From Thauera humireducens (GTDB taxonomy: Bacteria; Pseudomonadota; Gammaproteobacteria; Burkholderiales; Rhodocyclaceae): a stretch of 64,000 bases of DNA. The translations under genes and the position numbers were made by a program. Location: assembly GCF_001051995.2 (NCBI RefSeq), contig NZ_CP014646.1, positions 1,860,001 through 1,924,000 on the forward strand, written 5' to 3'. Shown here piece by piece: positions 34,090-48,257 of the stretch (within the stretch, counting starts at the first letter, position 1; each line of letters opens with the position of its first letter). Below the pieces are notes generated by a model. That model did no database searches. It was not told the DNA's origin and worked only from the letters and a program-made list of their open reading frames with translations.

Positions 34090-34355
34090 CCACGGCCTGT
34101 CACCACATCGCCCGCGACGAGTTGATTGCTGCGCTGCGCGATCTGCCCCCGCTGCCTTCGGTCGTGCTCGATCTGATCACGTCGCTGGGCCATGAGGAAC
34201 TCGGCACCTCGCAGTACGCCGCCAAGATCTCCCGCGACCAGGCGCTGGCTGCCAAGACCTTGCGCTTGGCCAACTCGTCGTTCTACGGACGAGGCAGGCA
34301 GGTCCGCTCGGTCTCCGAGGCGATCACCGTACTCGGCCTGCGCACGGTGCTGAGT
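34086..34355 (+). pseudogene. HDOD-domain protein, 3'-truncated
   Basis: About 90 residues of an HDOD signalling domain: ELIAALRDLPPLPSVVLDLI, QYAAKISRDQALAAKTLRLANSSFYG and VSEAITVLGLRTVLSL. Identity to the family ends where the reverse-strand IS630 fragment begins, and the frame then runs into antisense transposase sequence until 34,535. It is the last gene of the c-di-GMP module. Confidence 0.82.
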
Positions 34356-34576
34356 TTGCTGGGGCGCCCCGGAATCGGCTTGGCCAGCAATGCGTTCTGC
34401 CCGCCATTGGCAAAGTCGGCGAGCCACCGGAAAACGCTGCGCTCATTCACGCCATACGCCGCCGCGACGCTTTGCACTGTCTGCCCCTCACGCACTGCTT
34501 TGACAGCCTGCTGCCGCATCACCTGCAAGGTGTGATGATCGAGGGCACGGCCGTCGGAAGGTCGTTTGCATTTCAT
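34352..34576 (-). pseudogene. IS630-type transposase, N-terminal fragment
   Basis: About 75 residues (MKCKRPSDGRALDHHTLQVM ... VAAAYGVNERSVFRWLADFANGG, LLAKPIPGRPSKLS) of an IS630-family helix-turn-helix region, unrelated in sequence to the intact IS630 at 27,249. The catalytic part is absent. Confidence 0.75.
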
Positions 34577-34605
34577 GGGGCATATTATCGCTCACATGAC
34601 ACTAC

Positions 34606-34821
34606 TTACGGGAACGTTAGTAACTGCAGCCATGTCCCCTCTTCGCGTCTGACATACTCGGCCGCGTTTGTCGAGGAGGCGCGGAAACGCCTGTATGCAA
34701 AGAACAGCAAGATCGCGGCAAACGCGTACTTGACGGCGGCTTCTCCGAGAGATCGAGGACTGGCCAGCAGCAGAAACCAGAGACCTGCAACGCCATAGAG
34801 GACTGCAACGACTCGATGCAT
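34606..34821 (-). CDS. Small membrane protein, two predicted helices
   Basis: 71 aa: VVAVLYGVAGLWFLLLASP and AAVKYAFAAILLFFAYRRF are membrane segments, followed by a charged tail (YVRREEGTWLQLL). GC is lower than in flanking genes. No family recognised. The frame begins at ATG 34821 without a strong ribosome site. Confidence 0.55.
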   Translation of the reverse strand: MHRVVAVLYGVAGLWFLLLASPRSLGEAAVKYAFAAILLFFAYRRFRASSTNAAEYVRREEGTWLQLLTFP

Positions 34822-37196: not shown

Positions 37197-37749
37197 TCCC
37201 CTGTCCTTGATCTCAAGCCTTGGAGGCTGGCGTGCTGATGCAAAAGCCAGCAATACATCGCCGGCATCGAACGTAGTCGGAGGAATTTAAGGGAAAAACG
37301 TGCGGGTTAGGGCTTCTGCGCCCATCATAACCCCATGCTCTGAGGGTAAGCGCCGTTCGAACCTAGCTCTATCAGGACCATCGATCTTCGTGGGTCACCA
37401 GGCGGCGCCGGACCAAGCGCGCGTCTCTCGACCCAACCCCGAAGAGACGTTCATGTTCTCGGTACCCAACGGCTGTTTTCTGAGAAGAGCAGTTGCACCA
37501 ACGACAACCGAATGAGTGCTCATCGGCCTCAGCTGCCGGTGTGTTGATGGCGCAGTCAGGCAGCAATGTGCTGTTCATCTGCCGTTCGAGCGTCAGGCGA
37601 CGGTGAACGGCGGCTTCCCCATTCTGCCAACTGGAAGTACCGACCCAATCCTGCCTTTGGGCTCTTGGGAAAGCTGTCGTTCAAACTAGACGGCATCTTC
37701 GCCGGGCGGCTTTATCGCGCAGCGTTCGTGTGGACTGTCAAGTAGGACT
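37197..37749. other. Intergenic region with a dispersed repeat
   Basis: About 550 bp without a gene. The part 37,505-37,645 is an inverted near-copy (about 90% by eye) of 46,199-46,335. The remainder shows no recognisable feature. Confidence 0.55.
37505..37645. repeat. Dispersed inverted repeat, copy 1
   Basis: Reverse complement matches 46,199-46,335, including GGGTCGGTACTTCCAGTTGG, CGCCTGACGCTCGAACGGCA and CACATTGCTGCCTGACTGCG. Confidence 0.7.
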
Positions 37750-39275: not shown

Positions 39276-39491
39276 TTTAAACCTCATATTTAACGCATTC
39301 TTGGCCACACCCTTACCTTTTTGCCTCCGTTTTATTTTCTACCGATCAATTGTCTCAGCGGCACGGCCGTTCTGATAAGCGACTTTTCCGACTTTGCCTT
39401 GGACGGTTATGCGGCAGCCAGTCATGACATCGCCGCATCGCTAGAAAAGCAGCAGCCGACGTCATAGTGGGGTGATGCGACCGATGTGGAA

Positions 39492-40424
39492 CATAGGCTG
39501 AGAGCATACCGCGTCGCCTAGATGGCCGCTATCCGGATCGGGCGGTGACCGGCGGCTCCTGGCCGATAGTACGCTGTGGGCATCTTCCCCGATAGCCGCC
39601 GCACGCCACGGGCTCAAGAATCAGACTCCGATCAACAGCAAGGAGCCTGTCATGGAAACCCGTGAACACCCGCATCGGGAAGCCTGGAACAAGGGGAAGT
39701 TGGTGGGCCAGAAGGCGCCGCTCAAACCCAAAGACATCTGGGCCATCCGTATTCATCTGCAGAACGCGCACGAAGTGCGCGACCTCGCCATGTTCAACCT
39801 CGCGATCGACAGCAAGCTCCGAGGGTGTGACCTCGTCAGCCTGCGGGTGCGCGACGTGACGCATGGAAACCAGGTGCTCTCACGCGCCATGGTCGTGCAG
39901 CGGAAAACGCATCGGCCTGTGCAGTTCGAACTGACCGAGCCGACGCGCACGGCCGTGGCTGCCTGGATCGCAAAGGCCGCCTTGAGGTCGGAAGACTTCC
40001 TCTTTCCGAGCCGCCTGCACGACTCACCGCATGTCTCTACCCGTCAGTACGCGAGGATCGTCGAGCACTGGGTGGTGGCCGCCGGCCTCGATCCGTCCGC
40101 CTACGGTACGCACTCGATGCGACGCACGAAGGCGACATTGATCTACAAGCGCACGAAGAACCTGAGGGCCGTTCAACTCCTACTGGGTCACTCCAAGCTC
40201 GAGTCGACGGTGCGGTACTTGGGCATCGAGGTCGATGATGCCTTGGAGATCTCTGAGCAGACTGAGATCTGAACCCGGCGCGGCTGCCCGCCAAGCGCCT
40301 TTTGCCGGCGGGCGGCTGCTTACGGTGATGATGCTGAGAGGGTACTATCGGCCAGAAGCAGCCACTCACCACCCGCACCAGATAGCGGCCATCCAGTCGA
40401 GGCTGTATGCTCTGCGCCTACATG
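39492..40424 (+). mobile_element. Tyrosine-recombinase unit framed by ~80-bp inverted repeats
   Basis: The inner 14 bp are perfect: CTGGCCGATAGTAC (39,559-39,572) versus its complement (40,342-40,355). Similarity continues outward through GATGGCCGCTATC (39,521) to about AGGCTGAGAGCATAC (39,495), with matching complement ending near 40,424. About 80 bp per arm, roughly 80-85% identical by eye. The only gene inside is the 206-aa recombinase. Either an IS-like unit or an invertible segment. Confidence 0.7.
39652..40272 (+). CDS. Small tyrosine recombinase
   Basis: 206-aa tyrosine-type recombinase, near the size of the FimB/FimE inversion enzymes and lacking an N-terminal core-binding domain. 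Catalytic residues: Arg in NLAIDSKLRGCDLVSL (about 57), HSMRRTKATLIY (His-x2-Arg, about 153), LLGHSKLESTVRYLG (His then Tyr nucleophile, about 180-190). The upstream region contains the left inverted repeat. It is not an IntI: it lacks the IntI-specific extra helix and is 130 residues too short. Likely acts on the flanking repeats (inference). Confidence 0.88.
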   Translation: METREHPHREAWNKGKLVGQKAPLKPKDIWAIRIHLQNAHEVRDLAMFNLAIDSKLRGCDLVSLRVRDVTHGNQVLSRAMVVQRKTHRPVQFELTEPTRTAVAAWIAKAALRSEDFLFPSRLHDSPHVSTRQYARIVEHWVVAAGLDPSAYGTHSMRRTKATLIYKRTKNLRAVQLLLGHSKLESTVRYLGIEVDDALEISEQTEI

Positions 40425-40597
40425 CCAAATGGATCGTATCGCCGCGCTATGCCGACCGCTGCTGCTTTCCGTGTCCCGTTATGTTGGCTTGCGCGTAGGT
40501 TTCTGCTTCTAAACCGTAACTTGCAGAACATGTTATTTCCCACTTCTACGTCATGCGGCAGAACTGTCGCCAGAAAGCAGATTTCGAACTCACAGAT

Positions 40598-42573: not shown

Positions 42574-43169
42574 CCGGCCCAGAGAATGGTTCGTTTGAAA
42601 AAGCGAGTGGTCCATGCATGCTTAGAGGGTAGGTTTCGTCATGGCGGGTGAGAGTGTCCCCCCTAACTCAGCCCCAAAACGGGGCGGTACTCGCGGCCGG
42701 ACGAGCTCGGGGGCAGGCGGCGCTGGGCTTTTCCTGGCGCAGGCCATCAAGCGTAGGGATGATGCTCTCAGCATCGAGGGTTCGCTTTGCCGGGCTCGGC
42801 CCGCCCTTGACCCGGCCATACTCACCGTCTTTGGAGCCCATTCACCCGCTCGGAATTAAAAGAGACAGAATTTTCACCGACTGTTTTCGGCTGGCTCCGA
42901 TGGCGGCATCGGGTCGGGTCGAGACGGTCGCAGTTGGTTCGCAGCGTTCCCGCGCAGGAGGGGCCGAAAGTCTCAGTCCGGCCACGACCCGCCGTTCGGC
43001 CTGCAGGAAGAGCTGCCGCTCGAACGGCAGCTCCACTTGGGCTGCAGCCATTCGGTCAGTTCCCTATCCTTTTTTTCCAGAATGCGGAAAGAAAGACGGG
43101 GCTGAAGTAGCGTCGCTGCTGGGGGTGGCGTCCGAAGATCAGACAGAAGGGTTTATTCTTCCCAACGAG
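42574..43169. other. Intergenic region with degraded repeat-like sequence
   Basis: About 600 bp, GC-rich against low-GC neighbours. Contains inverted GCCGTTCG/CGAACGGC motifs around 42,990-43,040 like those in the dispersed repeat at 37,505 and 46,199. No gene supported. Confidence 0.4.
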
Positions 43170-46008: not shown

Positions 46009-46416
46009 CAGAAACCGATTCTGCCCTACAAACGAAAATGCTACGCTGGACGCCAAGCTTCTAGATTATTGCTGTCTGATTGACTGTGCCAGTCGAATAG
46101 CAGCAAAGGTCGAGCGGCTCGCAGCCAGCCACGACTCTTTGCGACGGCTTCGCTCAGAAAACCGCCGCAGGGCCAGCGAGGCCACGAATGTCTCTTACGG
46201 GTCGGTACTTCCAGTTGGCAGAATGGGGAAGCTGCCGTTCGCCCTCGCCTGACGCTCGAACGGCAGGTGACCAGCACATTGCTGCCTGACTGCGCCATCG
46301 AGCCACCGGCAGCTGAGGCCGATCACCAGCCACTCACCGATGTCGCACACAGCCGAAGGCTCCCCGCTCGGCGATCCATGCGCAAATCGGTGGTCGGAGA
46401 CCTACAAATCCACGCA
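46009..46416. other. Intergenic region containing a dispersed repeat
   Basis: About 400 bp between the TPR-like gene and the group II intron 3' end. 46,199-46,335 is the inverted counterpart of 37,505-37,645. Otherwise featureless. Confidence 0.5.
46199..46335. repeat. Dispersed inverted repeat, copy 2
   Basis: Near-copy of the complement of 37,505-37,645 (about 90% by eye). No coding signal is shared beyond a short frame starting STLLPDCAI on the same relative strand. Confidence 0.7.
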
Positions 46417-48257
46417 ATCGGGATAGGGGCGGCCAAGTTTCCTGACCGTTCCCCTCCCACACAACCCGGCATGCGGGTCCGCACCGGGCGGTTCGAGTCG
46501 TTGAGGTTATGAGAGCCGAGGCACACCGAGACGGTCGAAGTAGGCGATAGGCAGCGCGCGGTTCAATCGCATGCGGCTGTTATGCCACCAGCACCGACTG
46601 TTCGCCGCCACCTTGCGGGCGTCCGTCTCCGAAGCGCCCATCGCTTTCAACTCCCGATACATCGTTGTGCCCCGACGCCATTGCTTGAGCTGCACCACAC
46701 GTAGCCGGTGCCTGATCCACTCGTCGAGTTCGCGGAACACCTTGGGTGTCTGCGCAAGCTGGAAGTACGCCTTCCAGCCCGGCATGTAGGCCCGCAGTCG
46801 TTCGGCAATCTCGGACAGGTTGCGCCCACCCGAGCGACGTGTGAGTTGCCGAATGCGTTGCTTGAAGGTCTTGAGCGCCTTGTCGGCCACCCTGCACTTG
46901 ACCTGTCCGCCTGAGCCGTACCAGAAGGCATAGCCCAGAAACTTGCGGCGCGAGGCCGGCGCGACGGCCGTCTTGGCGTCGTTGACCTTCAGGTGGAGTC
47001 GATCATAGAGCTTCGTCAGGCCCGCCAGCACCCGTTCGCCCGCCCGGCGACTGCGCACATATACGTTGCAGTCATCGGCGTAGCGCACGAAGCGGTGACC
47101 CCTTCGCTCCAGTTCCCGATCCACCTCGTCGAGCAGCACATTGGCCAAGAGCGGCGATAGCGGTCCGCCTTGCGGCGTCCCCTCGTATCGCTCCATGACC
47201 ACGCCGCCATCCATGATCCCGGCCACGAGGTAACGACGGATCAGCCGCAGCACGGCCTTGTCCTCGATTCGCCTCGCCAACCGTTCCATCAGGATGTCGT
47301 GGTTGACCCGGTCGAAGAACTTCTCCAGATCCACATCGACCACCACCCGGTAACCGTCTTGCACGTAGCGCTGTGCATCGAGCACCGCGTCGTGCGCACG
47401 GCGTCCCGGACGAAAGCCGTAACTGTGTTCAGAGAACGTCGGATCAATCCTGGGCTGCAGGACTTGCAGCAGGGCTTGCTGGATCAGCCGATCCGTCACC
47501 GTCGGAATCCCCAGTTCGCGCACCCCACCATCGGGCTTCGGGATCTGGACGCGGCGCACCGGCACAGGCCGGTAGCTGCCATCGAGCAAGGATTCCCGAA
47601 TCCGGGGCCAGTGCGCTCTCAGGTACTCCGCCGTCTCGGCAATCGACAACCCATCCGCTCCAGCACTACCGCGATTGGATTTGACGCGTTTCCACGCCGC
47701 CTCCATGTTCGCTTTCGCGAGCGCCTGCGCAAGCAGGTCATCTCGCCCTGGGCTTCCAGTTGCATGCCGCGCCGTCCGTGCTTCATCACGCACCGCTTCA
47801 GGCTCGGCTTCACCTCGCCCTCTCGCGTTGCGCCCCAGTTTCCCAGGCTTCTGATGTATTGCACGTCCGAGCGACACGGCCTTCGGCCCTCCTACTCGTT
47901 CGGCCCTTCGCCCCAAACCAGCGACTACTACGGCCTCTGCTGACTTCTCGCTCCGGCTCAGCGCCGTCGCCCTTTCAGGCACAAGGCGAGATCTCCCCAG
48001 GTAAGAACGCACTCCTTCGCTGCACAACCGCCGGATTTACGCCGCTTCGCCTTGATCACGAGAGCTTCGCGGCTTCTTGCCCGCTCGCCCTGCTCGGCAG
48101 CGCCTTCTATCCGATTCTTGTCCATCGGCTCGCAGCTTATGCTCCACGCTTCCTTCCCACGCTCGGTCGCCCTCACGCAGTTGCGCTTCACTTCGTTCGC
48201 TGTGATCAACTTACGGCGGGACTTGCACCCGCAGGAGTGCGCCCATGCTGGGCGCAC
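46417..48257 (-). mobile_element. Group II intron, class C type
   Basis: About 1.84 kb on the minus strand. The 5' end reads GTGCGCCCAGCATGGGCGC. The 3' part has a domain V hairpin (about 46,457-46,494; CCCGGTGCGG/GCATGCCGGG) and a domain VI-like GGGAGGGG ... CCCCTATCCCGAT ending at 46,417. The 5' edge lies directly after a Rho-independent terminator, the target preference of group IIC introns. Confidence 0.85.
46507..47793 (-). CDS. ltrA: Group II intron reverse transcriptase/maturase
   Basis: 428 aa from GTG 47793 (start chosen at RDEARTARHATG; the frame stays open upstream). Reverse-transcriptase blocks in order: MEAAWKRVKSNRGSAGADGL, YRPVPVRRVQIPKPDGGVRELGIP, FSEHSYGFRPGRRAHDAV, VVDVDLEKFFDRVNHD, GTPQGGPLSPLLANV, active site FVRYADDCNVYV. 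The maturase (X) domain follows with RRSGGRNLSEIAERLRAYMPGWKAYF. A C-terminal HNH endonuclease is absent, as in class C introns. Splices and mobilises its host intron. Confidence 0.92.
   Translation of the reverse strand: MRDEARTARHATGSPGRDDLLAQALAKANMEAAWKRVKSNRGSAGADGLSIAETAEYLRAHWPRIRESLLDGSYRPVPVRRVQIPKPDGGVRELGIPTVTDRLIQQALLQVLQPRIDPTFSEHSYGFRPGRRAHDAVLDAQRYVQDGYRVVVDVDLEKFFDRVNHDILMERLARRIEDKAVLRLIRRYLVAGIMDGGVVMERYEGTPQGGPLSPLLANVLLDEVDRELERRGHRFVRYADDCNVYVRSRRAGERVLAGLTKLYDRLHLKVNDAKTAVAPASRRKFLGYAFWYGSGGQVKCRVADKALKTFKQRIRQLTRRSGGRNLSEIAERLRAYMPGWKAYFQLAQTPKVFRELDEWIRHRLRVVQLKQWRRGTTMYRELKAMGASETDARKVAANSRCWWHNSRMRLNRALPIAYFDRLGVPRLS

Follow-up and report, generated by a model that had tools for sequence, protein, structure and literature searches.

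FimB/FimE-type tyrosine invertases are proteins of about 200 amino acids that consist of the catalytic domain only and act on inverted sites. The fim sites contain a 9-bp repeat, TTGGGGCCA, which resembles the core of the element described here. The present system is like FimB/FimE in the size of the recombinase, its restriction to the catalytic domain and the inverted sites, but the element is a multi-copy unit with sites of its own and shows exchange of partners instead of a two-state switch. The dif modules of Acinetobacter are likewise modules bounded by short inverted-arm sites (pdif) and shuffled between plasmids. They rely on the host XerC/XerD, whereas here the core and half-site motif is different and a dedicated recombinase lies beside the site; the half-sites of the element are presumably not dif arms. 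In the class 1 integron (IntI1/attI1/attC) a tyrosine recombinase also lies by its preferred site and partners change on one side, but the site of the element is GGCC-centred, and whole integron platforms are exchanged rather than cassettes. RIT elements and Tn554 use tyrosine recombinases as mobility genes as well. According to the passages concerned of PMC3414803, RITs have a 28-29-bp inverted repeat and fit three recombinases into about 3.5 kb, and Tn554 requires two, whereas here one gene lies in 0.8 kb. No such element is described in the passages concerned of two classifications of tyrosine recombinases (PMC8138268, PMC3414803). In the relevant part of PMC5460862, a chromosomal betaproteobacterial integron is captured by a Tn5090-like transposon, and the events are left open. 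In the literature searched, including passages of PMC5460862, PMC8138268, PMC3414803, PMC3382206 and PMC11676243, we found no report linking the element to class 1 integrons.

The window is the whole stretch of 64,000 nucleotides that was analysed, taken from the 4.17-Mb single-contig genome of Thauera humireducens. It holds one copy (A) of a mobile element that is present in three copies (A, B and C) in this genome. Below, L numbers denote loci and G numbers denote genomes in the comparisons. The features of the window are as follows.

39560 to 40354, plus strand: mobile element copy A, core to core, shared with copies B and C and with genus relatives.
39652 to 40272, plus strand: gene of a catalytic-domain-only tyrosine recombinase of 206 amino acids, identified by PF00589 and alignment with XerD.
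39560 to 39607, plus strand: left terminal inverted repeat, with the left core TGGCCG at 39560-39565, from copy comparison, end matrix and resampling.
40307 to 40354, minus strand: right terminal inverted repeat, with the right core CGGCCA at 40349-40354, from the same three sources.
39446 to 39559, minus strand: left outer arm, a Y repeat directed away from the element and outside it, 80.8% identical to the repeat left of copy B.
40355 to 40571, plus strand: right outer arm, a Y repeat directed away from the element, 74.2% identical over 225 bp to the repeat left of copy B.
42897 to 42984, plus strand: module Z, terminating in a second core CGGCCA (42979-42984), from matches to intI1 partners in G299 and G263.

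Copy A is a 795-bp repeated element with the recombinase as its sole gene. Copy B is 96.2% identical to it over 795 bp; copy C is 91.8% identical over 781 bp and lacks the first 14 bp. The flanks of the three copies are unrelated. Genus relatives likewise share the region 39560-40354, with unrelated flanks. Around copy A, ungapped inverted arms of 162 nt (39446-39607 and 40307-40468) are 77% complementary, and their score of 80.6 is far above chance (maximum 15.4 in 200 first-order resamplings). The initial annotation had described a 206-amino-acid tyrosine recombinase alone between inverted repeats, which is borne out by this score and by a PF00589 match of 78.2 bits. It had also bounded the unit at 39,492-40,424 by arms of about 80 bp; the repeat is real, but the boundaries are wrong and only the inner ~48 bp of each arm are element. 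Because copies B and C share only 39560-40354, we define the element as 795 bp with ends of ~48 bp. These imperfect terminal inverted repeats match at 38 of the 50 outermost bases and score 26 (maximum 12.4 in 300 resamplings). Within the element, the perfect inner repeat is TGGCCGATAGTAC; the 14-mer given earlier begins with a C that is flank. The outer portions of the arms, about 114 bp each, match at 87 of 114 bases. They were considered as a part of the element and ruled out, since copy B has the element without adjoining outer arms; the dispersed repeat Y sits 98 bp from the element there.

Further features were observed in the window. A 137-bp inverted repeat (37510-37646 and 46199-46335, 91% complementary) surrounds an 8.5-kb low-GC stretch that holds the element, and it contains a half-site-like motif. 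An ORF at 46507-48027, in the same variable region as the element, resembles by eye a group II intron reverse transcriptase.

The recombinase belongs to the tyrosine recombinase superfamily by its PF00589 score (cut-off 27.1). It aligns with XerD from residue 39 and retains the Arg, His-x-x-Arg, His and Tyr positions. Its 206 residues leave no space for the N-terminal core-binding domain that such enzymes usually have. The protein falls far under the cut-offs of all eight NCBIfam families that it matched. It is not an IntI by the integron-integrase model TIGR02249 (23.8 bits, cut-off 265) and not a Xer protein by the XerC and XerD models (64.7 and 49.5 bits, cut-offs 335 and 330); the tyrosine-type invertase model gave 24 bits (cut-off 222). 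With one recombinase gene in a 795-bp unit, the element is also not a RIT, which has three adjacent tyrosine recombinases. In this genome it has the features of an insertion sequence in the wide sense, namely terminal repeats, the recombinase alone, several copies and unrelated flanks. Relatives of the recombinase (E ≤ 1e-30) were found in 54 of 297 family genomes, and many of them are fragmentary. A scan of genome contigs gave at least 522 confirmed stretches, the best 80 of which were kept. Relatives occur in Beta- and Gammaproteobacteria; among the matches listed, the closest named ones are Thauera and Zoogloea records. Among the plasmid matches are the IncP plasmid pRSB223 and large plasmids of P. 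aeruginosa.

The recognised ends carry a directional core, read as outside-T, GGCC, G-inside at both ends. A matrix was built from the inner side of the ends, and the core lies at a near-constant distance from the recombinase gene in the main groups. All six measured loci of the Pseudomonas group are 729 bp from core to core, with one core degenerate in two of them. Among the 88 loci with sufficient flank, the matrix recognised both ends in 25, only the right in 27, only the left in 15 and neither in 21, while 12 of 171 control windows scored equally well. On the question of whether the same repeats always flank homologues, both ends are thus present in 25/88, and one end in 42/88 or none in 21/88 speak against constancy. 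Outside the part used by the matrix, five bases (G-9, C-7, G-5, C-4, T-3) form an outer half-site. At least four of the five were present in 72 of 98 non-redundant outer flanks (left 34/45, right 38/53), compared with a mean of 2.2 and a maximum of 7 in shuffles. From the inner-built matrix and these outer bases together it follows that the site consists of a TGGCCG centre between two half-sites in inverted orientation, the T lying outside and the G inside at both ends. The half-sites of the element site are the inverted pair NNAGCNGNC.

A search of 297 family genomes for complete symmetric sites gave 53 rows (49 places); a reversed control pattern gave 9. Four symmetric sites centred on TGGCCA have two outer-type half-sites (G243:C34:76193, G145:C49:2562, G098:C11:23629 and G248:C59:17645), which is the form expected of an unoccupied target. 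The 64-kb window contains no complete site. Its loose half-sites number 7 in 37.0-46.5 kb and 9 elsewhere, against 3 and 14 for the reversed control, a weak signal. In plasmid pRSB223 (L048, 2192-2397), two tandem 103-bp modules, 74% alike and starting with TGGCCGGG, lie directly before the element. A third related stretch precedes them and also occurs inverted on the other side of the element. These core-starting tandem modules suggest that the site can also build arrays. The surroundings in pRSB223 gave only partial matches, in two other records. Fifteen IMG/VR viral contigs (L214-L228) each carry one exact Pseudomonas-type element end, TGGCCGGTTAGCGAC.

Exchange of partners occurs at one core. 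In all seven inspected locus pairs (L047/L118, L130/L131, L092/L094, L062/L035, L048/copy B, L235/L236 and L052/L021), homology spans the left flank and the element and stops 0-9 bp beyond the right core. The seven were compared base by base, six from the locus comparison and one a plasmid pair; other pairs with only short or repeat-derived common flanks were left out, and L048 and copy B have just ~100 bp of left flank in common. In the pair L130/L131, which comes from Hydrogenophaga 2FB and its relative 2FH, the partner swapped off the right end sits elsewhere, inverted, and is joined through its own core and half-site to another sequence. The pair L106/L113 has the opposite pattern: the right flank is common, the left differs, and the break has no recognisable core. 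As the exchange at the core is seen between genomes, it provides independent evidence that the element is active.

At GGCC, the right end of copy B abuts a class 1 integron carrying resistance cassettes (G000:C1:751749-756096, the same as L213:13750-18097). Its integrase scored 799.5 bits on the 337-residue integron-integrase model (cut-off 435). The integron contains an AAC(6')-Ib gene and a DfrA1-like gene that is split by an IS630-family transposase gene; its hexapeptide-repeat protein lies at the position where matching plasmids annotate catB3. Plasmid matches to this region end at the core in 8 of 8 rows among the matches listed. Past the far end of the integron there are genes with contractile-tail domains (sheath, baseplate, Pvc16, AAA). 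A separate stretch of 279 bp in the window (34345-34623) shares 99.6% identity with a portion of the IS630-type sequence splitting the dfrA1-like gene by copy B.

A query with the intI1 side gave 17 places among the matches listed in genus genomes, of which 11 reach the core and 6 match only further inside. Ten of the 11 were inspected (G263:C21, with 50 bp, was left out), and all ten 3' flanks of intI1 break at GGCCA. Of eight hits in a separate search, outside this count, four (G606, G364, G634 and G335) stop short of the core. The partners across GGCCA were the right end of the element at one place, a Tn402-type IRi end at one, module Z at three, sequences resembling by eye the ends of other elements at two (G277, G214) and others at three. 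Thus intI1 has several partners at the core, including at places without a recombinase element. The two bases following GGCCA vary among the intI1 junctions, and therefore GGCC alone does not simply delimit the crossover. A paper of 2008, reportedly the first on chromosomal class 1 integrons, may already describe this boundary as variable.

The same GGCC joint separates the Tn402-type IRi from intI1 in the 5'-conserved segment, so that the core of the element coincides with the intI1/Tn402 joint. The IRi-core-intI1 stretch of G048 (L133:1404-1660) is the 5'-conserved segment of class 1 integrons; it matches at least 5000 plasmid records at ≥99%, and IntI1 is annotated in most of the 40 plasmid rows listed. 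At the joint it holds a complete symmetric site, GTCCGCTGATGGCCGGCAGCAGCC, which is identical in four of 297 genomes searched, three of which were read. Reciprocally, the 101-bp IRi end was searched in 294 family and 379 order genomes. Identical full-length copies were found in eight genomes. Six of them (G048, G177, G160, G644, G515 and G164) continue through GGCCA into intI1; at GGCCA the end is joined to Y-type sequence in G191 and to a third sequence in G678. The contig of G164 ends 26 bases past the joint and that of G678 after 25 bases. In G114 a diverged IRi end (83%) meets the Y-type sequence of G191 at GGCCA (99.6% over 229 bp), and a diverged end in G259 (L245) has no GGCC at the joint position. 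Read from both sides, the junctions thus give intI1 several partners and the transposon end three, all exchanged at a single core. Tn402 may have captured its integron by such an exchange at the GGCC core.

Modules Y and Z are dispersed in the genus. Many of the Y matches listed in genus genomes end at or beside the core. Y-type sequence joined to Tn402-type ends (L239, L244) is related to the flanks of copy A (77-83% over 35-119 bp), the right outer arm being 77.3% identical to L244 over 119 bp. Better-preserved Y copies terminate in an attI1-like integron site, clearly so in L239, L244 and L017, and G191 and G114 diverge after this site. At the Y repeat of copy B the attI1-like end is borderline (score 25, shuffled maximum 24). 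In the arms of copy A itself it is not significant (right arm 18, shuffled mean 16.9); the attI-like end of the right arm is too decayed for significance. Module Z matches the partner of intI1 at GGCCA in G299 and G263 (two places) over 76-89 bp at 81-92%, and its matches stop at the core.

A junction of joined ends, as in a putative circular intermediate or a tandem, was not found above the control: matches at ≤2 mismatches occurred in 2 of 294 family genomes and control matches in 7, and a scan of viral contigs for joined Pseudomonas-type ends gave no contig. Empty sites were sought as matches running across the junction of joined flanks with long stretches on both sides. For copies A, B, C, L017 and L018, no junction-spanning match was among the matches listed in 29 genus genomes; the query covered 2970 of 4235 nt, without L019, L020 and 55 bases of the flank of L018. 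The joined flanks of L122 had no match in plasmids. Only element-bearing records were matched by the L051 flanks taken singly, by the right L047 flank and by the entire L046 element with short flanking sequence. The left flank of L047 matched 623 records, and the three that were read (L162-L164) are an uninterrupted LysR 3' end. This has TGGAGG at the junction instead of TGGCC and 3 of 5 half-site bases, and is therefore a misfit with a strict GGCC target. The initial annotation had raised a self-inverting switch, and the inverted directional cores are compatible with it, but no inverted form of the element was present in the locus pairs compared. The alternative orientation or complete empty site it looked for in related genomes was not found in the comparisons made. 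Its other two proposals fared better: an IS-like element using a tyrosine recombinase is supported by the several copies, conserved ends, unrelated flanks and presence on plasmids, and the capture or movement of genes fits best, since unrelated modules, class 1 integrons among them, are exchanged at the core.

We consider it probable that the element is a minimal site-specific unit whose own enzyme swaps modules at the core, and that class 1 integrons are moved, and were fused to Tn402, by this enzyme or one with the same specificity. A tyrosine recombinase with only the catalytic domain would be carried between its own recombination sites, or in some lineages beside them. It would recombine its own end, usually the right, with further copies of the site, and the sequence past GGCC would thereby be replaced by an unrelated module; modules between two sites could be moved or inverted. 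Class 1 integron platforms would be such modules, with intI1 joined through the GGCC core to the element, to other partners and to the IRi end. In this way the family, or an enzyme of the same specificity, could move class 1 integrons between chromosomal contexts and could have made the fusion with Tn402. We infer catalysis by the element's own enzyme, and the position at which it would cleave, from these comparisons; conservative site-specific recombination between cores by that enzyme would be the simplest account.

The element could instead be a passenger, one module among several bearing the site, and the GGCC exchanges could be the work of another recombinase with this specificity, possibly a larger or diverged relative. 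Such a role agrees with the element being the partner at 1 of 10 intI1 places, with the two further partners (G277, G214) that look like the ends of other elements, and with family recombinases that have no recognisable end. We regard it as unlikely, because the conserved ends of the family, at a fixed distance from their own gene, have the same core and half-sites, the right-end exchange happens with the element present, and no other recombinase lies consistently beside the junctions in the loci read. Still less probable is a plain IS-like element that cuts and pastes at GGCC-type targets, the coincidence with intI1 and Tn402 arising because GGCC is a frequent target. Such an element would agree with the terminal inverted repeats, the three copies, the unrelated flanks and the target-like half-sites outside both ends. 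It would not agree with the one-sided change of partner in seven pairs, or with intI1 and the IRi end swapping partners at the core in places that lack a recombinase element. Homologous recombination or repeated transposition between dispersed repeats is very improbable as the source of the junctions: modules Y and Z and the ~103-bp repeats, being scattered through the genus, could pair, but independent breaks fall at the same core between partners unrelated beyond it, and extended homology on both sides of the break was not seen in the junctions inspected.

Site-specific exchange by the enzyme of the element, our preferred reading, bears on the history of class 1 integrons, which play a central part in spreading resistance gene cassettes. 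The site of the element is the exact joint at which class 1 integrons meet their different neighbours, and the element is therefore a candidate for the agent that first moved integrons. A defined site, a gene family and junctions read from both the integron and the transposon side make the proposed reaction testable in the laboratory. Such a reaction would likewise account for a widespread mobile element with a single gene, annotated only as 'tyrosine-type recombinase/integrase'. We give about even chances to the wider proposal that the missing agent of class 1 integron history is this recombinase family, which would shuffle intI1/attI platforms among betaproteobacteria, would have fused one of them to a Tn402-type end and, as at copy B, would still exchange integrons that carry resistance genes.
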